In this document: positions 11,137 through 41,049 of the stretch, piece by piece
Layout: the number at the start of each line of letters is the position of its first letter
Numbering within the stretch: position 1 is the first letter of the stretch
DNA from: Candidatus Zixiibacteriota bacterium
Lineage (GTDB): Bacteria; Zixibacteria; MSB-5A5; GN15; PGXB01
Reading direction: 5' to 3'
DNA length: 46,617 bases
Assembly: GCA_900498245.1 (NCBI GenBank)
Contig: LS998015.1
Location: forward strand, 526-47,142
Position numbers and translations under genes: made by a program
Notes under the pieces: generated by a model
What the model was told of the DNA's origin: nothing
Databases searched by the model: none
What the model saw: only the letters and a program-made list of their open reading frames with translations

Positions 11137-11553
11137 ATGATTTATTCGCCTACTGCCCAACATGCCCTGCGGGCCCTGATTTATCTGGCCCGCCAGACGG
11201 AACGAATACCGATCCGGGTTTCGCAAATCGCCCAGGCCGAAAATATCCCGCGGCAATTCTTGTCCAAGATTCTCCATAACCTGAAAAACAAAAGGCTGGT
11301 CATCGCCACCAAAGGCCCCGGTGGCGGATTTACTCTCGCCCGCCCGGCCAAAGAAATCTCCATTATGGATATTGTCGAAGCGGTCGATGGGACTCAGGAT
11401 TTCGATAGGAAATGTATCCTCGGCCTGCAGGAGTGCAATGATAAAGCGCCCTGCGCCCTGCACAACCATTGGAAATCACTCCGCGATCAGTTCTCCAAAT
11501 CGATCGGGGCTATGACGCTCGATGCGGCGGTAAGGTCCCTGAAAAGTAAGTAA
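11137..11553 (+). CDS. Rrf2-family transcriptional regulator (NsrR/IscR-like)
   Basis: A 138-residue DNA-binding protein. The N-terminal winged helix (~1-65) has the family signature YSPTAQHALRALIYLA and the wing KGPGGGFTLAR. Three Cys follow at 93, 100 and 106 (C-x6-C-x5-C), the arrangement that holds an Fe-S cluster in NsrR (NO sensor) and IscR. It is followed by the DUF6448, hemerythrin-like, norC and norB genes on the same strand, which makes an NsrR-like role in NO sensing the best inference. A consensus promoter lies upstream, and an IscR-like palindrome sits between this gene and the next (11593-11618). Binding of a cluster and response to NO cannot be shown from sequence alone. Confidence 0.9.
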   Translation: MIYSPTAQHALRALIYLARQTERIPIRVSQIAQAENIPRQFLSKILHNLKNKRLVIATKGPGGGFTLARPAKEISIMDIVEAVDGTQDFDRKCILGLQECNDKAPCALHNHWKSLRDQFSKSIGAMTLDAAVRSLKSK

Positions 11554-11592
11554 AAAGGAGTTACTCATGAAACCTGTCTTCTATGCTAACAA

Positions 11593-11618
11593 AATACCTG
11601 ATTATAGGGTCAGGTATT
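11593..11618 (+). promoter_or_regulatory. Perfect inverted repeat, candidate Rrf2 (IscR-like) operator
   Basis: AATACCTGA (11593-11601) and TCAGGTATT (11610-11618) are exact inverted copies separated by 8 bases. The arms fit the outer halves of the E. coli IscR type 1 motif (ATASYYGA...TCRRSTAT), although the centre is one base shorter and does not match. The site lies in the leader of the DUF6448-norB genes, 24 bp before the ATG and right after the gene for an Rrf2 regulator. As RNA it could also form a 9-bp hairpin. Confidence 0.55.
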
Positions 11619-11641
11619 CATATTATTTGAGGAGGTCATAT

Positions 11642-12274
11642 ATGTTATCCCGAATTAATCTTGTCAGGCTGGGGACCCTGATTCTTTTTTCACTTGCCTT
11701 TCTGGCCGCGACAGCGCCGCCGGTTCGAGCTCATTGTGATACCATGGACGGGCCCGTCATCAAGGACGCCCGGACTGCTTTGGAAAGCGGCGATATCACC
11801 CCCGTCCTGAAATGGGTCAAGGCAGATGCGGAAGGGGAAATTCAAACCGCCTTCGCCGAAGCCCGAAATGTCCGCGTTCTCAATGAAACCGCCCGCGTCA
11901 TGGCCGACCGCTATTTCTTTGAAACACTGGTCAGAATTCACCGGGAAGGTGAGGGTGCCCCTTACACCGGATTGAAGCCCGCCGGATCGGATCTTCCTTT
12001 GTCCGTAGTCGAAGCGGACCGCTCCCTGGAAACCGGTTCTGATTCAACCCTGCAGGCGCTTTTACGGCAGTCCCTTCTGACCGGTCTGCATAAACGCTAT
12101 CTTGAAGCCCTCGAAAAAAGCCGCCACGCCTCTGAATCGGTTGCCTCCGGCCGGGAATATGTAGAATCCTATGTACAATTTGTCCATTACGTGGAACGAC
12201 TTTACTTGGACGCCTCGAGCGATCCGGGACACGGCCGGGAAGCCGGGCCGGATCACGGTGGGCATGACCAATGA
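11642..12274 (+). CDS. DUF6448 family secreted protein
   Basis: About 210 residues. The ATG at 11642 has GAGGAGGT 6 bases upstream and gives a signal peptide (RLGTLILFSLAFLAATAPPVRA) cleaved just before HCDTMDGPV, the conserved start of the mature DUF6448 protein. A second ATG at 11567 with AAGGAG is possible but would extend the signal peptide by 25 residues across the palindrome. The mature chain is mostly helical and ends in a His/Asp/Gly-rich tail (GHGREAGPDHGGHD) that could bind metal. Its stop overlaps an ATG of the hemerythrin gene (ATGA at 12271). Family function is unknown; the position between an Rrf2 regulator and NO reductase suggests a periplasmic role in NO or metal handling. 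Confidence 0.8.
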   Translation: MLSRINLVRLGTLILFSLAFLAATAPPVRAHCDTMDGPVIKDARTALESGDITPVLKWVKADAEGEIQTAFAEARNVRVLNETARVMADRYFFETLVRIHREGEGAPYTGLKPAGSDLPLSVVEADRSLETGSDSTLQALLRQSLLTGLHKRYLEALEKSRHASESVASGREYVESYVQFVHYVERLYLDASSDPGHGREAGPDHGGHDQ

Positions 12275-12306
12275 TTGAATCAAAACCAGTCAAGATTGGA
12301 GCCAAT

Positions 12307-12888
12307 ATGAAAGCGATTGAAATGCTGAAAAATGAACACCGCCTGATAGAAAAGGTTTTGGCGGCTCTTGAGTATTATATCGGGGCAATCGATAAGGGAG
12401 AAGAGATTGATCGGCGTGACCTCGCGAAATTCACCGCCTTCATCCGCACTTTTGCCGATTCCTGTCACCACGGCAAAGAAGAAGGAATTCTCTTCGCCGA
12501 AATGATCGAACGCGGCTTCTCCCGGGAGCAGGGGCCGGTGGCGGTCATGCTTATGGAGCATAATGAGGGCCGGCGGCTCATAAGCCGGCTTAATGCTCTG
12601 GCGGACAAAAAAGAACCGTGGGCCGAAAATGATCGCCAGGAAATATCCCGCACCGCTACAGAGTATATCGATCTTCTGCGCCGTCATATCATGAAGGAGG
12701 ATAATATCCTCTACCCCGCCGCCGAGCAGAATATTCCGCCCGAAATCATGACCGCCATGTATGACCGCTTTGAGAGGTTTGAAGAAGAAGAAACCGGAGT
12801 CGGAGAGCACGAGAAATTTCATCGGATGGCCGAAGAACTGGTGCGCAGGTACTCGCCCGGCGCTTCCCCTGCTAATCATCATCATTGA
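12307..12888 (+). CDS. Hemerythrin-like (HHE) domain protein
   Basis: A four-helix di-iron protein of 193 residues. Metal-binding His/Glu appear in the expected order: NEHRLIEKVL (helix 1), CHHGKEEGILF (helix 2), LMEHNEGRRLI (helix 3) and RRHIMKEDNILYP (helix 4). Members of this family bind O2 or NO or take part in repair of iron proteins under nitrosative stress. The start MKAIEMLKNEHR at 12307 matches family starts and has TTGGAG upstream; an ATG at 12271 overlapping the DUF6448 stop is the alternative. It ends with a His-rich tail (NHHH). Encoded directly before norC and norB, so it is probably part of an NO-protection operon. Confidence 0.9.
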   Translation: MKAIEMLKNEHRLIEKVLAALEYYIGAIDKGEEIDRRDLAKFTAFIRTFADSCHHGKEEGILFAEMIERGFSREQGPVAVMLMEHNEGRRLISRLNALADKKEPWAENDRQEISRTATEYIDLLRRHIMKEDNILYPAAEQNIPPEIMTAMYDRFERFEEEETGVGEHEKFHRMAEELVRRYSPGASPANHHH

Positions 12889-12906
12889 TAGAATATGAGG
12901 TCTAAA

Positions 12907-13617
12907 ATGTCAACCAAAACCGCCAAATGGATCTTTTATGCCGGGACTCTTTCCTCGGCTCTCCTTTTTCTGATACTCACTTTCGACACCCATCGTCAGG
13001 TCGCCGCTCTAACGCACGCCGACCGGCTTTCCGATGAGGTTGTGGCCGGGAAACATGTCTTTCAGAAATATAATTGCAACGATTGCCATACCATTCTCGG
13101 CTTCGGAGGATACTACGCCCCTGATTTGACCCGGGTCTACAGCCGCCGGGGAGAGAAATATATTCGCGGCATTATCACTCAACCGGAACTGACTCTGGCC
13201 AATTCCTTCCGCAAAATGCCGCACCAGAACGTCTCCCCCGAGGAAATTGATAAATTGCTTGCCTTCTTCCAATGGGTCGACGGCATCGACAACAATAACT
13301 GGCCCCCGCAGGACGAAAAGAGTCGCCGTTCCTCCGAAACCGCGCGTCTTATGGGCGGGACCGATTTATCCCCTGGAGCCGCTTTATTCAAAAGCAACAA
13401 CTGTATCACCTGCCACAAAATCGGCGGTGTGGGAGGTGATGCCGGCCCGGCGCTCGATGCTATCGGCTCACGGCTGGACAGAACCGCCATTCGCAAACAG
13501 ATTACCGATCCCCAATCCCTCAGGGCCAATTCCGACATGCCGGCCTACCCGGATCTTTCTGCGGGCGACCTGAAGGCCTTGGTCGATTTTCTCGTCAAGC
13601 AGAAAGGAGATAACTAA
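12907..13617 (+). CDS. norC: Nitric oxide reductase cytochrome c subunit with an extra haem domain
   Basis: A 236-residue protein that passes electrons to NorB. One N-terminal membrane anchor (~8-26) is followed by the NorC-type haem c domain (CNDCH at 57-61, then ILGFGGYYAPDLTRVY as in NorC, with the probable Met ligand in FRKMPHQ). A second cytochrome c domain carries CITCH at 166-170 and a possible Met ligand in SDMPAYP. Standard NorC has about 150 residues and one haem, so this is a two-haem form. The ATG at 12907 with GAGG upstream is chosen over 12895. The stop TAA shares its last A with the ATG of norB, so the two are probably translationally coupled. Confidence 0.92.
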   Translation: MSTKTAKWIFYAGTLSSALLFLILTFDTHRQVAALTHADRLSDEVVAGKHVFQKYNCNDCHTILGFGGYYAPDLTRVYSRRGEKYIRGIITQPELTLANSFRKMPHQNVSPEEIDKLLAFFQWVDGIDNNNWPPQDEKSRRSSETARLMGGTDLSPGAALFKSNNCITCHKIGGVGGDAGPALDAIGSRLDRTAIRKQITDPQSLRANSDMPAYPDLSAGDLKALVDFLVKQKGDN

Positions 13618-14951
13618 TGACTCCCTATAAATCACAACGGGTCGCCTATCCTTATTTTGTCATCGCCTTGCTACTGTTCGGCCTTCAGGTAATCATGGGA
13701 CTCTGGCTGGCCATAAATTATGCCTTTACCCTTCCTCAGAGTCTGGTTGACATTTTCCCCTTTGCCACGGCCCGCGCCTTTCATACCAATCTGCTTGTCC
13801 TGTGGATGTTGCTTGGATTTATGGGCGGAACATATTTCATGGTTCCCGAAGAAAGCAAATCGGAATTGTTCAGCACCAAACTTGCCTATATCCAATTAAT
13901 TCTACTGGTCGGGACCGGTGTCGCCGCTTTGACCGGCTTCTTGTTCGGCTGGACCAAAGGGAGACCCCTGCTCGAGATTCCTTTCCCTCTCAATTTCCTG
14001 ATCGTCGTGGGAGCCTTGATCTTCCTCTTCAATGTCGGTATGACTCTGTATCGGGCCAAAAATTGGACCATGATCCAGGGGACCCTTCTCGGCGGCCTGG
14101 TCATGCTGGCTCTTCTGTATTTATTCGGCATCCCCTTTTATAAAAATCTGGCCATCGACTGGTACTACTGGTGGTGGGTCATTCATCTCTGGGTCGAAGG
14201 GGCCTGGGAACTGGTGACCGGGGCCATCATAGCCTGGATATTGATGCGGATAACCGGAGTCCCGCGGGCCACTGTCGAAAAATGGCTTTATGTCGAAATC
14301 GGCCTTTTCTTGTTTACCGGAATTGTCGGAACCGGACATCACTACTATTGGATCGGGGCCCCCCATTATTGGCTCTGGATTGGTGGTATTTTCAGCGCTC
14401 TCGAGCCACTGCCGATTATCCTCATGGTCTGGGATACTTTCCGCCATGTCAGGGAACGAAAAGAGAAAGTGACTCATCCGGTCGTTTGGACCCTGGCCAT
14501 CGGCTGCTCCGTCTATCATCTTATCGGAGCCGGCGTCTGGGGTTTTGTTCATACTCTCCCGCAAATAAATTATTATACCCACGGGAGTCAGGTCACCGTT
14601 TCCCACGGTCATATGGCCTTTTTCGGCGCCTACGCTCTTCTGAATCTGACTATTTTCTATTACGCTTTTCCGCGCCTTAAGGGGATCGATGGTTTCCAGC
14701 AGAATTTGGGTAAAATCGGCTTCTGGACGACCAGCATTGCTATGTTCGCCCTGGGACTGGCATTTGGTGTCGCCGGTGTTTTGCAATCTTATCTGGAGCG
14801 GGTTTTGGGCCTTGGCTTTATGACCGCCCAGGCACAGATGCAACTATGGTTCAAAATCGCGATCGGAAGCGGACTCGTCTTCCTGGCCGGAGTTATCATC
14901 ATCATTTATGACCTCTTAAGCATGAAGTCTACACCGAAGATCGCATCTTGA
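13617..14951 (+). CDS. norB: Nitric oxide reductase large subunit
   Basis: A 444-residue, ~12-helix member of the haem-copper oxidase superfamily, reducing NO to N2O at the membrane with electrons from the preceding NorC. Expected active-site residues are present: low-spin haem ligand His56 (AFHTNLL); FeB ligands His190 (HLWVEGAWE), His241 and His242 (TGHHYYWIG); the cNOR glutamates Glu194 and Glu198; Glu263 (SALEPLPI); and haem ligands His330 and His332 (VSHGHMAFFGAY). The length suits cNOR-type NorB, not the quinol form, which carries a long N-terminal extension. No norD/norQ-type genes lie nearby, although a MoxR ATPase is encoded about 5 kb away. A terminator follows. Confidence 0.96.
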   Translation: MTPYKSQRVAYPYFVIALLLFGLQVIMGLWLAINYAFTLPQSLVDIFPFATARAFHTNLLVLWMLLGFMGGTYFMVPEESKSELFSTKLAYIQLILLVGTGVAALTGFLFGWTKGRPLLEIPFPLNFLIVVGALIFLFNVGMTLYRAKNWTMIQGTLLGGLVMLALLYLFGIPFYKNLAIDWYYWWWVIHLWVEGAWELVTGAIIAWILMRITGVPRATVEKWLYVEIGLFLFTGIVGTGHHYYWIGAPHYWLWIGGIFSALEPLPIILMVWDTFRHVRERKEKVTHPVVWTLAIGCSVYHLIGAGVWGFVHTLPQINYYTHGSQVTVSHGHMAFFGAYALLNLTIFYYAFPRLKGIDGFQQNLGKIGFWTTSIAMFALGLAFGVAGVLQSYLERVLGLGFMTAQAQMQLWFKIAIGSGLVFLAGVIIIIYDLLSMKSTPKIAS

Positions 14952-17792: not shown

Positions 17793-18689
17793 CTAGTACA
17801 ACTTCTCCCTTTTCGCCAGGAAGGCGTAAAGGGCGTAGTCGAAAGGCACCGACGTATCAATCAGATGATAATCGATCCGGCTCTGACGGCATTCCGACGC
17901 AATCTTTTCCGAGAACTCTTTCGACATCCGGGCAAAATGCTTTTTCATCTGCCACGGCAAAGTCGTGATCTCTTCCCCCGTTTCCATATCTTTGAAGATC
18001 GCCTCAGTCGGGAAAGCAAAATCCTTCTCCCGCGGATCGAGAATATGAAAAAGTATCACTTCATGCTTCTTGTGGCGAAAATGTTTCAGCCCCGAAATAA
18101 TTTTCTCCGGCTCGTCGAGCAGATCGGATAGAATGACAATTAATCCCCGGCGCGAAATCCGCTCCGCCATTTCATGCAGGGCAACGGCAATATCGGTTTT
18201 ATCACTCGGCGTTTGATTGGCGATCTCCTGCAAAAGGAGATGCAAATGCCCCGATTTGCTCCGCGGCGGGATATAGCGGCGGATCCGTTCGTCGAATGTC
18301 ACCAGCCCGACCGCATCCCTCTGCTTGAGCATCAAAAACGACAGCGCCGCCGAAAGCATCGCGGCATAATCGAGCTTCACCGTCCCGCCCGAGGAATACC
18401 CCATCGACGCCGAGCAGTCGAGCAGAAGATACCCTTTCAGGTTGGTTTCTTCTTCATACTGCTTGATATAATACCGATCCGATTTCGCGAACACCTTCCA
18501 GTCGATATCGCGGATATTGTCCCCCGGCATATACTGTCGGTGCTCGGCGAACTCCACCGAGAAACCGTGGTATGGCGATTTATGCAACCCGGCTATAAAC
18601 CCTTCGACCACCATCCGGGCGCGCAGTTCCATCCCCTTCAGTTTCCCGACAATTTCCGGGTCCAGATATTTGCGGTATGAAGTTTCCAT
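17793..18689 (-). CDS. DUF58 domain protein (vWA-like, MoxR-associated)
   Basis: A cytosolic protein of 298 residues. The family signature YMPGDNIRDIDWKVFAKSDRYYI (split here as GDNIRDIDW and KSDRYYIK) is followed by a von Willebrand A-like fold with an intact MIDAS motif DCSAS (DxSxS, ~93-97), so it should bind a divalent metal. Such proteins are nearly always paired with MoxR AAA+ ATPases, here encoded at 19484-20485, and are thought to help mature or insert cofactors into client complexes. The ATG at 18689 is used; a TTG at 18692 would add one residue. The ribosome site is weak. A perfect hairpin lies just upstream (18717-18737). No client is obvious. Confidence 0.88.
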   Translation of the reverse strand: METSYRKYLDPEIVGKLKGMELRARMVVEGFIAGLHKSPYHGFSVEFAEHRQYMPGDNIRDIDWKVFAKSDRYYIKQYEEETNLKGYLLLDCSASMGYSSGGTVKLDYAAMLSAALSFLMLKQRDAVGLVTFDERIRRYIPPRSKSGHLHLLLQEIANQTPSDKTDIAVALHEMAERISRRGLIVILSDLLDEPEKIISGLKHFRHKKHEVILFHILDPREKDFAFPTEAIFKDMETGEEITTLPWQMKKHFARMSKEFSEKIASECRQSRIDYHLIDTSVPFDYALYAFLAKREKLY

Positions 18690-18716
18690 CAAATCTATTC
18701 TACCAAATAATTACTT

Positions 18717-18737: not shown

Positions 18738-18831
18738 TTAACTCGATTCCCTCTAAATGTCATCCCGGTCTTTGACCTGGATCAAGAATGCGAATCTCAC
18801 TACTGATATTAAACCCTGGCGGATTAATTCT

Positions 18832-35121: not shown

Positions 35122-35306
35122 TTTTGATTTAACTTACTATCCCATTTTGAAGACAATGAAATTGTTTGTCTAATCCAAAGTTAATCTCATATCCAATTAT
35201 GTCAAGTTATTACTTGGGACACTGCAACCTGCCTTTCGCAATATCTCGTCCTCAATAACTTTTCCGCTTGAAATACCGTGCCAATTACGTATCTTCCTCG
35301 GGCATT

Positions 35307-35999
35307 ATGAATAAGGGTCTGCAGAAAATATTCGGCGAAATCCCCGAAACGTACGAACTGGTCAATCATATCCTGACGCTCGGAACCGATGTCATTGTCC
35401 GCAAACGAATGGCGTATCGGGCGGCGAAAGATGGCGGTCAAAGATGGCTCGATGTCTGCTCCGGGACAGGGGAGACCGCGGTCAATCTGAGCCGGCTGGC
35501 CAAAAACGGCACCCGGATATTTGCGGCTGATTTTTCCGCCCCGATGCTCAAAGTCGCCGCCGCCAAACCGGGGGCCAAAAATATCCGCTTCGTCCTGGCC
35601 GATGTCGGCCAACTTCCATTCCCCGATAATAGTTTCGATCTCATTACCCTTTCTTTTGCCACTCGCAATATCAACACGTCCCGCGATAATCTGATCAAAA
35701 CCGTTACCGAGTTCCGTCGCGTTCTCCGTCCCGGCGGACGGTACATAAATCTCGAAACCAGCCAGCCCCGCTTCAAATTTGTAAAGAAACTTATGCATTT
35801 ATATGTCCGTCTGGCGGTCAAACCGATTGGCTCTCGCATTTCCGGTTCCAAAGCCGGGTATGCCTATCTGTCCGAAACCATTCCGCGCTTCTACTCGGCC
35901 GAGGAATTTGCCGAAATTCTCAAAATCGCCGGATATAGCGAAGTCACTCATAAGCGGATGTTTTTCGGCATCGCCGCCCTCCATAAAGCCGTCAAATAA
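35307..35999 (+). CDS. ubiE: UbiE/MenG-type quinone methyltransferase
   Basis: About 230 residues. It starts LQKIFGEIPETYELVNHILTLG, the family opening (F..IA..YD..N..LS.G), then the SAM site DVCSGTGETAVNLSR (~48-62), and ends with the family-like YAYLSETIPRFYSAEEFAEILKIAGYSEV (in pieces). It should add the last C-methyl group to a quinone precursor; menaquinone is likely in this lineage. The ATG at 35307 is chosen because it places the conserved start at a normal distance; a TTG at 35268 is the alternative. Confidence 0.9.
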   Translation: MNKGLQKIFGEIPETYELVNHILTLGTDVIVRKRMAYRAAKDGGQRWLDVCSGTGETAVNLSRLAKNGTRIFAADFSAPMLKVAAAKPGAKNIRFVLADVGQLPFPDNSFDLITLSFATRNINTSRDNLIKTVTEFRRVLRPGGRYINLETSQPRFKFVKKLMHLYVRLAVKPIGSRISGSKAGYAYLSETIPRFYSAEEFAEILKIAGYSEVTHKRMFFGIAALHKAVK

Positions 36000-36043: not shown

Positions 36044-36721
36044 ATGGCGACAGTTGATCTCCTGAAATCCTGCTTTCTCTGCTCGGGCCTTGACAATGAT
36101 GAACTCCGAGCCGTTCATAATATTATCTCCATCAAAAGGCTTTCAAGAGGGGAGAGCCTGTTCCTTGAAGGAGATCCTGCCTCCGGCTTTTACATTTTGC
36201 TTGCCGGGCGGGTCAGAGTATATAAATCGTCCCCCGACGGCAAAGAGTTCACGATCCATCAAATCGCGCCCGGCCAACTTTTCGCCGAGGCGGCGGTCTT
36301 TCGCGGCAATAAATTTCCCGCCAGTTGCGATGCCCTCGAAAATTCCACCGTCGCCTTCCTTCCCAAAGAGGCTTTCACACAACTCATTAAAGAGTCGCCA
36401 CAGATTTCTCTGAAAATAATCGCCGCGCAGGCCGGTTTTCTTCGCGAATTCAATTTGAAAGTCGAGGAGCTGACTCTAAAGGAAGTTCCTTCGCGCATCG
36501 CAGCATATCTGCTTCGCGAATCACAAAAAAAGAAAAACCTCGAAATAACCCTCGACATCTCTAAGGCCGAGTTGGCCCGTACGCTGGGCACCATATCGGA
36601 GACACTCTCCCGCAATTTGAAGAAATTAAGAGAGATAGGCGCTATAAAGGTCTCCGGCAAAAAGATCACTATTCTCGAACCGGACGAACTTCAATCAATC
36701 GCCGACGGCAAAAAAATCTGA
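36044..36721 (+). CDS. Crp/Fnr-family transcriptional regulator (DNR-like)
   Basis: A 225-residue regulator. An N-terminal cyclic-nucleotide-binding-type domain (~10-125; SRGESLFLEGDPASGFYILLAGRVRVY) joins a C-terminal helix-turn-helix (~165-215). The recognition helix reads SETLSR, with Glu and Ser-Arg where Fnr and DNR contact TTGA half-sites, which fits the TTGAC-N4-GTCAA box 6 bp downstream of its stop. Only Cys10, Cys13 and Cys95 are present, fewer than the four Fe-S ligands of E. coli Fnr, so it is more like the haem-using NO sensor DNR or another type. No clear ribosome site precedes the ATG. It is placed directly before the genes it probably controls. Confidence 0.9.
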   Translation: MATVDLLKSCFLCSGLDNDELRAVHNIISIKRLSRGESLFLEGDPASGFYILLAGRVRVYKSSPDGKEFTIHQIAPGQLFAEAAVFRGNKFPASCDALENSTVAFLPKEAFTQLIKESPQISLKIIAAQAGFLREFNLKVEELTLKEVPSRIAAYLLRESQKKKNLEITLDISKAELARTLGTISETLSRNLKKLREIGAIKVSGKKITILEPDELQSIADGKKI

Positions 36722-36726
36722 TTCCC

Positions 36727-36740
36727 TTGACATAAGTCAA
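36727..36740. promoter_or_regulatory. Perfect Crp/Fnr-family operator TTGAC-N4-GTCAA
   Basis: TTGACATAAGTCAA is an exact palindrome of the type bound by Fnr, DNR and related factors. Its centre (36733.5) is 41.5 bp from a start expected at about 36775, given a -10-like GATATT at 36763-36768. That is the spacing of a class II activated promoter. The controlled genes would be 36815-41049. Confidence 0.8.
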
Positions 36741-36814
36741 AGGGGTTTTCCGCTTCTCAATCGATATTGGTCGTAGATATTGGACCATAAATGTCGATTT
36801 AAAGGAACCGGAAA

Positions 36815-37582
36815 ATGGCAAAACGAAAAATTATCAGGATTGATGAGGATAAGTGCGACGGGTGCGGACTGTGTGTCCCGTCCTGCGCCGAGGGTGCGCT
36901 GGCCGTAATCGACGGCAAGGCCCGGCTGGTGAGCGAAACTTACTGTGACGGTCTTGGCGCTTGCCTTGGAGAATGCCCCCGGGGCGCCATCACTGTCGAG
37001 GAACGCGATGCCGCCTTGTTTGATTCCGATGCCGTTGCCGATCATCTCCGAAATAAATTCGTCCAGAATTCAAGCCATCTCTCGTCAATCTCCAACATTA
37101 TGCCTGCACATTTTTCCTCCTGCCCCGGAAGCCACTCCCAATCATTGAAGCAAACATCCTCTTCAACACAATTCAGCGCACCGGCTGCCGAAACAGAGAT
37201 TCCATCACAACTTGGCAATTGGCCGGTCCAAATCCATCTCGCGCCAATCAAAGCACCGTACTTCCAAAACGCCCGGTTATTGATTGCCGCCGATTGCGTC
37301 CCCTTTGCCTTCGCCGATTTCCACAACCGTTTTCTCGAGGGGCGAATTCTCTTGATCGGCTGTCCCAAACTCGATGATACCGATACTTATCTCAATAGAC
37401 TGACCGCCATAATCGCGGAAAATGATATCCTGTCAATTGAAATCGTCTATATGGAGGTCCCCTGTTGCTCCGGGCTGGTGCATCTTATAAAGCGGGCCCT
37501 CACCGATGCCAATAAATCAATACTGCTGACTCTGCACAAAATCGGCATCCGCGGAAACTATCTAAGTAGCGAGAATTTATAA
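36815..37582 (+). CDS. Dicluster 4Fe-4S ferredoxin-like protein
   Basis: A 255-residue electron-transfer protein. The N terminus has two cluster motifs: CDGCGLC-x3-C (Cys14, 17, 20, 24) and CDGLGACLGECP (Cys44, 50, 54), the latter with a wider first gap as in the family that reads YCDGLGACLGECPxGAI. After a low-complexity Ser-rich linker (~85-125), a C-terminal domain (~135-255) contains LIGCPKLDD and VPCCSGLV, whose Cys could bind a further metal or thiol. It is the first gene after the Fnr-type box. Homologues often accompany DUF438 and hybrid-cluster genes, by general knowledge. Confidence 0.9.
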   Translation: MAKRKIIRIDEDKCDGCGLCVPSCAEGALAVIDGKARLVSETYCDGLGACLGECPRGAITVEERDAALFDSDAVADHLRNKFVQNSSHLSSISNIMPAHFSSCPGSHSQSLKQTSSSTQFSAPAAETEIPSQLGNWPVQIHLAPIKAPYFQNARLLIAADCVPFAFADFHNRFLEGRILLIGCPKLDDTDTYLNRLTAIIAENDILSIEIVYMEVPCCSGLVHLIKRALTDANKSILLTLHKIGIRGNYLSSENL

Positions 37583-37596
37583 CAAAGGATACAATT

Positions 37597-38832
37597 ATGA
37601 GCGAACTAATCAATAATGCCCGTAAACGGAAGGATCTGCTCAAACATATGATCCTCCAACTGCACAAGGGCGAGGCCCCGGACGCGGTCCGCAAGCAACT
37701 ACTCCGCCTCATGGGCGAAGTACCGTATGCCGATGTGGTCGAAGTGGAACAGGAACTTATTCATGATGGACTCCCCGAGACCGAAATCCTTCAGTTGTGC
37801 GACCTTCACACCGCCGTCTTGAAAGGCAATATCGACCAGAGCGGCGCCAGGACTGCTCCCCCCGGTCACCCTGTCCATACTTTCCTGCAGGAAAATAAGG
37901 CGCTAGGATGGGAAATCAGCACCCTTTCGCAGTTGTATGACGACATTAAGGGCCGTCCTGAAAGCGACGACGTCTCTCCGCTGATGATCGAAATCAGAAA
38001 ACACTTCAACGCCTTAAGCGATGTCGACAAACATTATCGCCGCAAAGAGAATCTTCTGTTCCCCTATCTCGAGAAGCACGGCGTCACCGGCCCGCCCACC
38101 GTCATGTGGGGAAAACACGACGAAACCCGGGGGCTCCTCAAAGCCGCTTTCGAGGCCCTGGAACAATCCGGGAATATTACCGCCGGCGAGGCCAAAATCG
38201 TCATCGATCTTGTCCTCGGCCCGGCCTCAAGCGCCGTAGAGGACATGATATATAAAGAGGAACAGATTTTGTTCCCGATGTGCCTCGATACCTTAACCGA
38301 GCCGGAATGGTACCATATCTATAACCAGAGTCTGGAAATCGGTTTCTGCCTGTATGACCCGACCGATATCTGGAAACCGGCCGTCGCATCCGCCGCGCCG
38401 GGAGCCGAATCATCAACTTCGGCCCGCGTCCAACTTGCCAGCGGGAGCATGACCCTGCAGGAATTGACCGCCATTCTCAATACCATTCCGTTCGACCTGA
38501 CTTTTGTCGATAAAGACGATACGGTCCGCTATTTCACGCAGGGGAGAGAACGGATATTCGACCGCAACCGCGCCATTCTCGGCCGCAAAGTCCAATTGTG
38601 CCACCCGCCGTCGAGCGTCCATATTGTCCAGAATATCATCGATGACTTCCGCGCCGGCATTCAGGATCGCGCCGCCTTTCATATCAATCTGCATGGACGT
38701 TTTATCAGCATCGAATATTTCGCCCTGCGGGGTCAGAATAAAGAATATCTGGGGGTGCTCGAAGTGAGCCAGGACCTGACCGAGAAGCGAAAACTGGAAG
38801 GGGAAAAACGGCTCTTAAGTTATGTCGATTGA
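37597..38832 (+). CDS. DUF438-hemerythrin-PAS protein
   Basis: A 411-residue cytosolic protein of three parts: DUF438 (~1-75; NARKRKDLLKHMILQLHKGE), a hemerythrin-like HHE domain (~85-240; PGHPVHTFLQEN, IRKHFNALSDVDKHYRRKENLLFPYLEKHG in pieces, WGKHDETR, IYKEEQILFPM) and a C-terminal PAS-type domain (~290-400; FDLTFVDKDDTVRYFTQGRERIFDR, ending LGVLEVSQDLTEKR). The di-iron site may sense or bind NO/O2 and the PAS domain may hold a haem or other ligand. AAAGGA precedes the ATG. It is the second hemerythrin-type gene in the window. Exact role unknown. Confidence 0.93.
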   Translation: MSELINNARKRKDLLKHMILQLHKGEAPDAVRKQLLRLMGEVPYADVVEVEQELIHDGLPETEILQLCDLHTAVLKGNIDQSGARTAPPGHPVHTFLQENKALGWEISTLSQLYDDIKGRPESDDVSPLMIEIRKHFNALSDVDKHYRRKENLLFPYLEKHGVTGPPTVMWGKHDETRGLLKAAFEALEQSGNITAGEAKIVIDLVLGPASSAVEDMIYKEEQILFPMCLDTLTEPEWYHIYNQSLEIGFCLYDPTDIWKPAVASAAPGAESSTSARVQLASGSMTLQELTAILNTIPFDLTFVDKDDTVRYFTQGRERIFDRNRAILGRKVQLCHPPSSVHIVQNIIDDFRAGIQDRAAFHINLHGRFISIEYFALRGQNKEYLGVLEVSQDLTEKRKLEGEKRLLSYVD

Positions 38833-38843
38833 AAGGATATAAT

Positions 38844-39368
38844 ATGAATAACACAAAATCTCCCATAGATATCACGCCCGAGACCAAAGTCGGCGCTTTT
38901 CTGGATAATTTCCCCCATCTGGAAAAATTCCTAATGGAGATGGCCCCGGCGTTCGATAAACTGCGCAACCCCTTCCTGAGAAAGACCGTGGCCCGAATCG
39001 CCACTCTCCGGCAGGCGGCCCAGATCGGCGGTGTTCCCCTCGGCACCTTGATCAACTCGCTCCGAGCCGCCGCCGGTATGGAGGAATCCGCGATATCGGA
39101 TGCTTCGACAGATAAATCTTCGGCGCCGGAATGGTACCGATCCGCGGACATTGCCAAAAGTCTCGACGCCCGCCCGATGCTGGAATCAGGGGAGCATCCG
39201 CTGGGAAAAGTCACGGAAGAACTGAAAGTCCTTCCCGAAAATAAAATCTTCGAACTTATCACGCCCTTTCTTCCCGCGCCGTTGATCGATGCCGCCCGAG
39301 GGAAGGGGTTCGCCGCCTATAGCGTAAATGACGGCGGAACATTTCGCACCTATTTCAAAAAGGAATAG
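38844..39368 (+). CDS. DUF1858/DUF2249-type protein
   Basis: A 174-residue protein. The N-terminal DUF1858 domain (~5-65; ITPETKVGAFLDNFPHLEKFL, then LRNPFLRKTVARIATLRQAAQIGGV) usually accompanies PAS/hemerythrin and nitrosative-stress proteins. The C-terminal half (~105-174; SGEHPLGKVTEELKVLPENKIFELITPFLPAPLID) resembles DUF2249, a SirA/TusA-like fold. AAAGGA lies 7 bases upstream of the ATG, 11 bp after the DUF438 gene. Function unknown; a small redox or NO-related partner is inferred from context. Confidence 0.85.
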   Translation: MNNTKSPIDITPETKVGAFLDNFPHLEKFLMEMAPAFDKLRNPFLRKTVARIATLRQAAQIGGVPLGTLINSLRAAAGMEESAISDASTDKSSAPEWYRSADIAKSLDARPMLESGEHPLGKVTEELKVLPENKIFELITPFLPAPLIDAARGKGFAAYSVNDGGTFRTYFKKE

Positions 39369-39371
39369 ATT

Positions 39372-39728
39372 ATGTCATCGCCCACATCCAAAAACAGCGG
39401 CCGTCTCGACCCGGCCGAAATTTATCATCTCGATAAATTGCTCGACTATGTCCCCGGTTCCATTGTCAGCCGCACCCTGATTCAAAGTAAAGCCGGTACG
39501 ATCACGCTCTTTTCTTTCGGCGCCGGCCAGTCGTTGAGCGAGCATACCGCCCCGTATGACGCCCTGGTGCAGGTACTCGACGGCGAAACGACCCTGACTA
39601 TCGGGGGAAAACCGTTGACGGTCAAAGCGGGGGAGACGGTCCTGATGCCGGCCAATGTCCCGCACGCGGTCGATTCGGCGGCGGCCTCCAAAATTCTTCT
39701 GACCATGATCCGGGGGATCGCCGAATAG
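39372..39728 (+). CDS. Small cupin-domain protein
   Basis: A 118-residue single-cupin protein. The metal-site motifs are recognisable: GQSLSEHTAPYDALVQVLDGE (cupin 1; only one His plus an Asp and Glu) and MPANVPHAVDS (cupin 2). It starts 3 bp after the preceding stop and is followed at 10 bp by the NapH-like gene. Its substrate is unknown; cupins of this type accompany hemerythrin/Fnr genes in many bacteria, by general knowledge. Confidence 0.88.
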   Translation: MSSPTSKNSGRLDPAEIYHLDKLLDYVPGSIVSRTLIQSKAGTITLFSFGAGQSLSEHTAPYDALVQVLDGETTLTIGGKPLTVKAGETVLMPANVPHAVDSAAASKILLTMIRGIAE

Positions 39729-39738
39729 GGGAAATGCG

Positions 39739-41049
39739 ATGAGTTTCCTGATTCTTTTGCCGGTCATACTTTCCTCCCTGATACTCGGCGCCCATTTTTA
39801 CCGGAGCGCCAATTTCGGCCTGGTGCTCCTATGCGTAACCGCGCCCTTTATGCTTCTTATCCGCCGCGCCTGGATACCGCGTATCATGCAGATTCTGCTT
39901 TTTCTCGGAGCCGCGGTCTGGGTCTCGACCCTTCTGACCATCGCCAAAATGCGTCTCATGCTTGGCGAATCGTGGCTCCGAATGGCGATAATCCTCGGCG
40001 TGGTGGCGCTTTTCACCGCCGGTTCGGCCCTGGTGTTCCAAACCGGGCGGCTCCGCCGCCGGTACCAACAAAAGGCCATGGCGGTGAATCCTTCCCTGAC
40101 GGCATTCATCCTGACCGTCATCATTCTGACCATAGTGCAGAAAGTGGTGCAACCGCCGATGCTTCTTTTCGAGCGGTTCCTCCCCGGAGCCGGCTGGTTT
40201 GAAATTTTCCTTCTGGCCCTGTACGCCGGATGGATAACCGAAAATATGCTCGATATCAAGCAATCGCCCAAATGGCGGCTCCGTATCTGGTCCCTCTTTT
40301 CCGCCGTCTTTTTCGGACAACTTCTTATCGGTCTTCTCGGAATCGATAAATTCCTGATGACCGGGAAATTGCACTACCCCATTCCGGCTTTGATCGCGGC
40401 GGGACCGATTTTCCGCGGCGACGGTTTCTTCATGCCGATTCTTTTTGTCGCCACCGTCATCCTGGTTGGCCCGGCCTGGTGCAGTCATCTCTGCTACATC
40501 GGGGCGTGGGACAATATCGCCTCGCACGGGCGCGCCAAGCCGAAAAAGATGCCGCGCTGGCGTCAACCGGCCCGGATCGCTGTCATGGTTGCTGTCATTG
40601 CTTCCGCCATAATTCTCCGATTGGCCGGGGTTTCGGTCACGATCGCCTCGATTCTGGCGGTAACATTCGGCCTTATCGGGGTCGGTTTGATGCTTCTCTG
40701 GTCTCGCAGGGCCGGGGTGATGACTCATTGCACCGCCTATTGCCCGATCGGCCCGATGGCCAACTGGTTGGGGAAATTGTCTCCTTTCAGAATTAAGATT
40801 AATGATACTACTTGCACCGACTGCGGGATCTGCCACACCGCCTGCCGGTATGACGCTCTCAATATGGCCGATATCAAGAACCGCCGCCCCAATATCGCCT
40901 GCACTCTTTGCGGCGACTGCCTGGCCTCCTGCCGCGACAATTCTATCGAATATCATTTTCTCGGGCTTAAGGGGGCTTCCGCCCGGACCTTATTTTTGGT
41001 TCTGGTCATCTCTCTTCACGCCGCCTTTCTCGGAGTGGCAAGAATTTAG
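39739..41049 (+). CDS. NapH/NosR-like membrane ferredoxin
   Basis: A 436-residue integral membrane protein, about eight or nine helices, with redox motifs in the last 190 residues: CSHLC (248-252) and CTAYCPIGP (331-339), the C-x3-C pairs typical of NapH/NosR/CcoG-like proteins, then two 4Fe-4S motifs, CTDCGICHTAC (359-369) and CTLCGDCLASCR (388-399). Such proteins move electrons from the quinone pool or cytoplasm across the membrane. It is the last gene of the Fnr-box operon and could supply electrons to the ferredoxin or hemerythrin proteins. GGGGAAATGCG precedes the ATG. Confidence 0.92.
   Translation: MSFLILLPVILSSLILGAHFYRSANFGLVLLCVTAPFMLLIRRAWIPRIMQILLFLGAAVWVSTLLTIAKMRLMLGESWLRMAIILGVVALFTAGSALVFQTGRLRRRYQQKAMAVNPSLTAFILTVIILTIVQKVVQPPMLLFERFLPGAGWFEIFLLALYAGWITENMLDIKQSPKWRLRIWSLFSAVFFGQLLIGLLGIDKFLMTGKLHYPIPALIAAGPIFRGDGFFMPILFVATVILVGPAWCSHLCYIGAWDNIASHGRAKPKKMPRWRQPARIAVMVAVIASAIILRLAGVSVTIASILAVTFGLIGVGLMLLWSRRAGVMTHCTAYCPIGPMANWLGKLSPFRIKINDTTCTDCGICHTACRYDALNMADIKNRRPNIACTLCGDCLASCRDNSIEYHFLGLKGASARTLFLVLVISLHAAFLGVARI

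Follow-up and report, generated by a model that had tools for sequence, protein, structure and literature searches.

A DUF438–hemerythrin–PAS protein in the operon slot of Hcp, within a probable HcpR-type regulon of Candidatus Zixiibacteriota

What does a hemerythrin-like protein of the DUF438 family do in an operon that has the regulator, box and ferredoxin of a nitrosative-stress regulon, but lacks Hcp? The question is raised by a gene cluster in a 46,617-nucleotide stretch (the window) of a Candidatus Zixiibacteriota genome (GCA_900498245.1, contig LS998015.1, positions 526 to 47,142); the genome has 3,508,505 bases in one contig and a single DUF438 gene. We lean slightly towards the view that this is an HcpR-type operon of nitric oxide (NO) and nitrite stress in which the DUF438 protein and its DUF1858/DUF2249 neighbor stand in for Hcp, fed by a NapH-like protein and a FrdX-like ferredoxin. 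As an earlier note made from the sequence of the window had described, a regulator gene is followed by a box and five close genes; all six genes are on the + strand and their domains were confirmed with Pfam.

36044..36721, + strand: CRP/FNR-family regulator, HcpR/DNR-like, 225 amino acids (Pfam cNMP_binding and HTH_Crp_2)
36727..36740, strand not applicable: palindromic regulator box TTGACATAAGTCAA (pattern match and relatives' promoters)
36763..36768, + strand: putative -10 element GATATT (conserved column block in 36 promoters)
36815..37582, + strand: FrdX-like ferredoxin with a Cys-rich C-terminal domain, 255 amino acids (Pfam Fer4)
37597..38832, + strand: DUF438, hemerythrin-like (HHE) and PAS_10 protein, 411 amino acids, iron ligands substituted at K150 and M217 (Pfam DUF438, Hemerythrin and PAS_10)
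38844..39368, open reading frame from 38829, + strand: DUF1858/DUF2249 protein (Pfam DUF1858 and DUF2249)
39372..39728, + strand: small cupin, 118 amino acids (Pfam Cupin_2)
39739..41049, + strand: NapH/NosR-like membrane polyferredoxin, 436 amino acids (Pfam Fer4_5, NCBIfam resemblance)

The evidence that carries this view comes from the operon in relatives. In those without DUF438, a protein of about 570 amino acids lies between NapH and an octaheme cytochrome, and both its sequence and the TIGR01703 profile identify it as Hcp. Three loci (L171, L177 and L179) read regulator, box, FrdX, NapH, Hcp, octaheme cytochrome and an NrfH-like gene, and two others (L046 and L289) read the same with DUF438-DUF1858 at the position of Hcp. 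Within family f15, the regulator and box of L178 are followed by Hcp and ferredoxin, and those of L042, whose regulator is sister to that of L178, by DUF438, DUF1858, cupin, NapH and ferredoxin. When Hcp genes stand apart from the operon (genomes G082, G066 and G093), the box is found 80-130 bp upstream of them, and the lone Hcp gene of G011 likewise has it upstream. Since the box precedes stand-alone Hcp genes and the two proteins have a common operon slot, we place Hcp and DUF438 in one regulon. Hcp is a high-affinity NO reductase, and a search of the window's own genome (G000) found none. Among the 46 regulator-positive genomes, out of 132 examined in the phylum, DUF438 and Hcp co-occur just once (1/22/9/14, Fisher p 0.0098), and 34 of 40 genomes of other groups that carry DUF438 have no Hcp match, a count that has no matched background.

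The perfect TTGAC-N4-GTCAA box of the earlier note is indeed present, and it is kept before the operons of relatives. The exact pattern TTGACN4GTCAA occurs five times in the 3.5 Mb genome, the window box included, the other four sites being inside genes (three) or between convergent genes (one). In Zixibacteria loci, which were picked by protein and not by box and some of which come from close relatives, TTGAYN4RTCAA was found in the 200 bp ahead of 25/26 ferredoxin, 16/25 DUF438 and 13/38 octaheme cytochrome operons, and reversed and altered control patterns gave zero matches in the same upstream regions. The FrdX-like ferredoxin follows the box directly in 25 of 26 cases, and the box consensus among relatives is TTGACYTAARTCAA. 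When 36 box-anchored promoters were aligned, only two other blocks stood out clearly: CGATATT, and an upstream A-rich stretch that overlaps in part with the 3′ end of the regulator gene. Measured from the box centre, the GATATT of the former is at a distance of 29.5-34.5 bp, or at -12 to -7 given a box centred at -41.5, which is the class II activation geometry established for FNR and CRP. A chance occurrence of the box is ruled out by the relatives' operons, the zero controls and the conserved promoter geometry. The genome holds 46 TTGAYN4RTCAA sites (about 40 checked against gene calls and about 10 judged on sequence alone); most are intragenic, and besides those discussed here none matches the refined consensus. 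A site TTGACCTGGATCAA at window positions 18772-18785 may be a chance match; it precedes, by 80 bp, a gene of the DUF58/MoxR-linked type (- strand, 17793-18692).

Both the box and the set of genes correspond to what has been published on the HcpR/FrdX regulon of nitrosative stress. The HcpR1 motif is wyTTGACnnnnGTCAArw, hcp and frdX are its core targets and residue determinants of HcpR1-type regulators have been given (PMC1274295); in C. difficile, NO resistance requires each of hcpR, hcp and frdX, and HcpR turns on frdX-hcp in the presence of NO (PMC12915319). Here, the motif is found upstream of the targets and frdX is among them, the label FrdX being taken from domain and position and not from a sequence comparison with published FrdX. 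The hcp gene is missing as a target in G000 and present as one in G011, G012, G038, G052, G069, G082, G093 and G113. The HcpR determinants (Ser/Pro at CRP-180, Glu 181, Arg 185) are present in the window regulator, whose recognition helix is S-E-T-L-S-R (S in 22, E in 26 and R in 27 of 28 homologues). However, these helix residues are common to DNR and FNR and do not set HcpR apart, and a PDB search with the regulator did not separate HcpR, DNR and CRP. The box itself favors HcpR, since most boxes (40/51) have C and not T at position 5. His72, conserved in 27/28 homologues, is a candidate heme ligand only, which FNR-type proteins may share. We rejected an iron-sulfur FNR because the cluster cysteines are not kept (C10, C13 and C95 in 16, 21 and 14 of 28). 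Like the HcpR-FrdX-Hcp regulon of anaerobes, the locus has a CRP/FNR regulator, a TTGACnnnnGTCAA box, a FrdX-like ferredoxin beside the regulator and, in close relatives, Hcp; unlike it, the window operon has DUF438 and DUF1858 in the slot of the missing Hcp together with an extra cupin and NapH-like protein, and the co-regulated respiratory enzyme is an octaheme cytochrome and not NrfHA. Box, promoter geometry and the HcpR match support the co-regulation that the earlier note had predicted under a CRP/FNR regulator of a NO-responsive kind.

That note had also staked its reading on conserved clustering, proposing a comparison of gene neighborhoods, and such clustering is what we found among relatives. 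Over the 132 genomes, DUF438 was found in 48 (one match, with 26% identity, was set aside), the regulator in 46, the ferredoxin in 71, this NapH-like protein in 13 and the octaheme cytochrome in 74. The order regulator, ferredoxin, DUF438, DUF1858/2249, cupin and NapH is kept in same-family relatives (L003-L006, L008, L010) at 50-89% identity; in the rest of the phylum DUF438 and DUF1858/2249 stay neighbors and the other members vary. DUF438 has the DUF1858/DUF2249 gene as its direct neighbor in almost every Zixibacteria locus and in 41/70 other loci. As the operon is present without both genes in G082 and G076 (L185, L186), the two behave as a single removable unit. The cupin mostly travels with the NapH-like gene, and in one locus (L184, G079) the two stand by themselves, regulator, ferredoxin and DUF438 all being absent. 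Outside the phylum, DUF438 adjoins norB (L228, L238), the octaheme cytochrome (L227, L242, L245, L257) or FrdX (L250, L254, L257, L258). A gene of about 250 amino acids resembling S-adenosylmethionine methyltransferases follows DUF438-DUF1858 in L225, L242, L245 and L249, which are KSB1, Bacteroidota and Ignavibacteria-type loci.

Finding no terminal reductase gene in the cluster, the earlier note had suggested that the hemerythrin protein itself might be the acceptor. That account of the reductases is incomplete: outside the window, the same chromosome holds an octaheme cytochrome operon with a matching box, and the same octaheme family adjoins the DUF438 cluster in relatives (L042, L045, L046, L064 and L066, and the four loci outside the phylum). 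The box TTGACTTAAATCAA, at position 1416816 and 130 bp before the octaheme cytochrome gene, is, besides the window site, the only refined-consensus box found outside a gene in this genome. The cytochrome has eight CxxCH motifs and similarity to the HAO family, its best solved relative being the Ignicoccus hospitalis octaheme cytochrome c (4QO5, E 2e-46); its co-regulated operon continues with Rieske, cytochrome b, multiheme and NrfH-like genes. In 17 genomes, some of which lack DUF438, the regulator gene is no more than 8 kb away from the octaheme cytochrome. On the other side of the divergent region that holds this box (L081:4113-4947; 1416112-1416946 in G000), a thiol-peroxidase and ferritin-like gene pair begins, which might be under the same regulator. 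A porin-like outer-membrane family of about 430 amino acids is encoded directly 5′ of the octaheme cytochrome in many relatives: L175 (5341-6630), L176, L180-L182, L045, L178, L187, L196, L204, L206 and L208. The window has another NO cluster at 11137-14951, with an Rrf2-family regulator, an uncharacterized protein, an HHE protein with intact His/Glu motifs (12271-12888), a two-heme cytochrome c and a NorB-like gene; its norC-norB pair (12895-14951) is under the Rrf2-type regulator, and no HcpR-type box was found in it.

The DUF438 protein has its DUF438, hemerythrin and PAS_10 domains in the order of the PF0695-like family. A profile built from 21 members of the family gave a match to YtfE (E 7e-7), in which H84 and H204 bind Fe1, H129 and H160 bind Fe2, and E133 and E208 bridge (PMC9268430). 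The equivalents in the window protein are H91 and M217, H146 and H174, and K150 and E221, so that two of the six ligands are replaced (E133 by K150, H204 by M217). Across 98 DUF438 proteins of many phyla, position 150 is Lys in 94, position 217 is Met in 91, and position 174 is occupied by either His (70 proteins) or Asp (28). The same substitutions in so many phyla point to a ligand change that is old and retained and not to the decay of a single gene. The survey led us to reject a canonical di-iron protein, and a normal di-iron centre is not expected in the HHE domain; the remaining H146, H174 and E221 would fit a site of the 2-His-1-carboxylate kind with at most one iron. The divergent DUF438 proteins of L064-L066 have the full ligand set (E150/H217), possibly the ancestral di-iron state. 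All three of these genes have ferritin-like proteins nearby, and L064 and L066 have octaheme cytochromes as well. PF0695 of Pyrococcus furiosus (3CAX) shares the HHE and PAS domains and Met at 217 but keeps Glu at 150, and SMU_1151c of Streptococcus mutans (2QKP) has the same PAS domain. The YtfE/ScdA/RIC di-iron proteins have in common with the window protein the HHE four-helix bundle, the NO-stress context and the equivalents of H84, H129, H160 and E208, and differ in the two substituted ligands and in having the ScdA N domain in place of DUF438 and PAS.

A structure model (overall predicted local distance difference test score 75, predicted template modelling score 0.63, the HHE domain being the only part well predicted) confirmed a four-helix bundle (helices 92-118, 127-160, 165-189 and 196-232) and the PAS fold, and the HHE fold matched FBXL5 hemerythrin (Z 11.1) and 3CAX (Z 22.1). 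The PAS domain carries an invariant LCHPP motif (C335-H336), and in the model H336, after a short helix (332-335) and before a long one (338-353), is a candidate heme ligand only. Its structural neighbors in Foldseek include the heme-PAS sensors Aer2 and FixL as well as flavin and empty PAS domains, so a heme there is only a lead, and the PAS domain may be an alternative cofactor site of the protein. The neighboring DUF1858/DUF2249 protein resembles Thermus DrpAB (DUF2249; DUF1858-DUF2249-DUF2249) in its domains and in a nitrate-respiration context; unlike DrpB it has one DUF2249, and its partner is DUF438 instead of DrpA.

From the gene order, the common box, the promoter geometry, the shared slot and the absence of Hcp, we infer a mechanism in which NO as the signal, DNA binding, the direction of electron flow and the chemistry of DUF438 would be as follows. 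The HcpR-like regulator, which would sense NO from nitrite reduction and probably be activated by it, would bind the box centred at -41.5 and turn on FrdX, DUF438-HHE-PAS, DUF1858/DUF2249, the cupin and the NapH-like protein. The same regulator would switch on the distant octaheme cytochrome operon, whose product could handle nitrite, hydroxylamine or NO in the periplasm. The NapH-like protein would couple FrdX to the quinone pool, and FrdX would deliver electrons in the cytosol to DUF438, with DUF1858/2249. The DUF438 module would then bind and reductively remove NO or a product of NO, a job assigned to it because Hcp does it from the same operon slot in relatives.

Several observations weigh against such a replacement. 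A strict genome-level exclusion between DUF438 and Hcp was rejected, as it does not hold across the 132 genomes together (p 0.38) and fails in a second class centred on an Ignavibacteria genome, where 3/6 Hcp genomes carry DUF438, slightly above expectation (p 0.06). Independent pairs in the regulator tree are too few (0 the same way, about 1.6 opposite), and Thermotoga maritima has both proteins; once phylogeny is taken into account the exclusion is weak, and the second class does not show it. DUF438 and the octaheme cytochrome are not associated in their presence over genomes (p 0.59), which makes their link a regulatory and positional one, by synteny and common box. The di-iron ligands of the HHE domain are broken, electron transfer from quinol to ferredoxin would be uphill unless the potential of FrdX is high, and PAS domains are commoner in sensors than in enzymes.

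The main alternative, which we judge unlikely, gives the DUF438 protein and its DUF1858/DUF2249 partner a sensor or adaptor role within the same NO/nitrite regulon: the PAS domain would bind a cofactor, the pair would tune expression or activity, and NorBC and the octaheme cytochrome would remove NO. The PAS domain, with its invariant LCHPP and its structural likeness to Aer2 and FixL, speaks for it, as do the lack of a reductase-type cofactor motif in DUF438, the norBC genes already in the window and Thermus DrpB (DUF1858 and two DUF2249), which modulates nitrate-respiration genes and is a proposed nitrate sensor (PMC6282519). However, the pair has no DNA-binding, kinase or other output domain, the operon already has a regulator, and the pair occupies the slot of a catalytic protein beside an electron carrier. 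A role like that of YtfE/RIC, the repair of nitrosylated iron-sulfur centres with electrons from FrdX, would agree with the YtfE profile match, with the recovered HHE fold and with the NO induction of RIC genes in other bacteria (PMC9268430), but we find it rather improbable, as almost all of the 98 proteins have substitutions at two of the six YtfE ligands, RIC's N-terminal ScdA/DUF542 domain is missing and an HHE protein with intact motifs is already encoded in the other NO cluster of the window. In the version of the earlier note, electrons would pass from quinones through NapH and ferredoxin to a di-iron hemerythrin enzyme, the only reductase at the end of the chain. The chain is plausible in its layout, since relatives set the same regulator, box and ferredoxin with a NapH-type gene beside Hcp, and in many of them this gene is next to FrdX; the di-iron acceptor is very improbable in view of Lys150 for the bridging Glu (94/98), Met217 for His (91/98) and the co-regulated octaheme cytochrome.

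Replacement of Hcp by the DUF438 module might extend beyond this operon. In that wider proposal, which is tentative and on balance doubtful, DUF438-HHE-PAS and DUF1858/DUF2249 would form a widespread unrecognized system of NO detoxification in place of Hcp in HcpR-type regulons, acting at a one-iron 'pseudo-hemerythrin' or a heme-PAS site. The HcpR/FrdX regulon is already known; what is surprising is that DUF438 shares the slot of Hcp and that, across the family, Lys has taken the place of the bridging Glu and Met that of His. We found no earlier description of either in mostly open-access literature. Open-access literature screened by title and abstract contained no paper on the function of the DUF438 family, and that on DUF438, DUF1858 and DUF2249 holds almost nothing functional apart from Thermus DrpAB. 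Proteins present in many phyla are now placed in a defined regulon with a testable role in NO/nitrite stress, and an uncharacterized hemerythrin-like protein in Hcp's place may be an unrecognized defence protein or sensor. If DUF438 substitutes for Hcp, anaerobes would have a second cytosolic route for NO; if DUF438 proteins are sensors, the FrdX/NapH electron route would still need an acceptor.

The remaining proteins of the cluster also have peculiar features. The ferredoxin, described earlier as dicluster, matches Fer4 with one full CxxCxxCxxxC motif, but its second cluster is uncertain, with three of the four usual cysteines (C44, C50, C54). Its residues C103, C161, H170, C183, C217 and C218 are invariant in 27 homologues, which suggests that the C-terminal domain may house an unrecognized metal or redox site. 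The DUF1858/DUF2249 protein probably starts at ATG 38844 rather than at TTG 38829, and its DUF2249 match is below the Pfam cut-off. In the cupin the usual metal-ligand histidines are reduced to two (H58, H98). The NapH-like protein has two 4Fe-4S motifs at its C terminus and ten or more invariant cysteines; it scores 36.5 and 34.4 bits against the NCBIfam equivalogs, with cut-offs of 213 and 234, and having failed this test for the NapH quinol dehydrogenase it is, as judged from sequence, NapH-like in architecture only. Directly 5′ of the regulator lies a ubiE/menG-type methyltransferase gene (window 35268-35999), kept in L037-L039, with a possible link to menaquinone.

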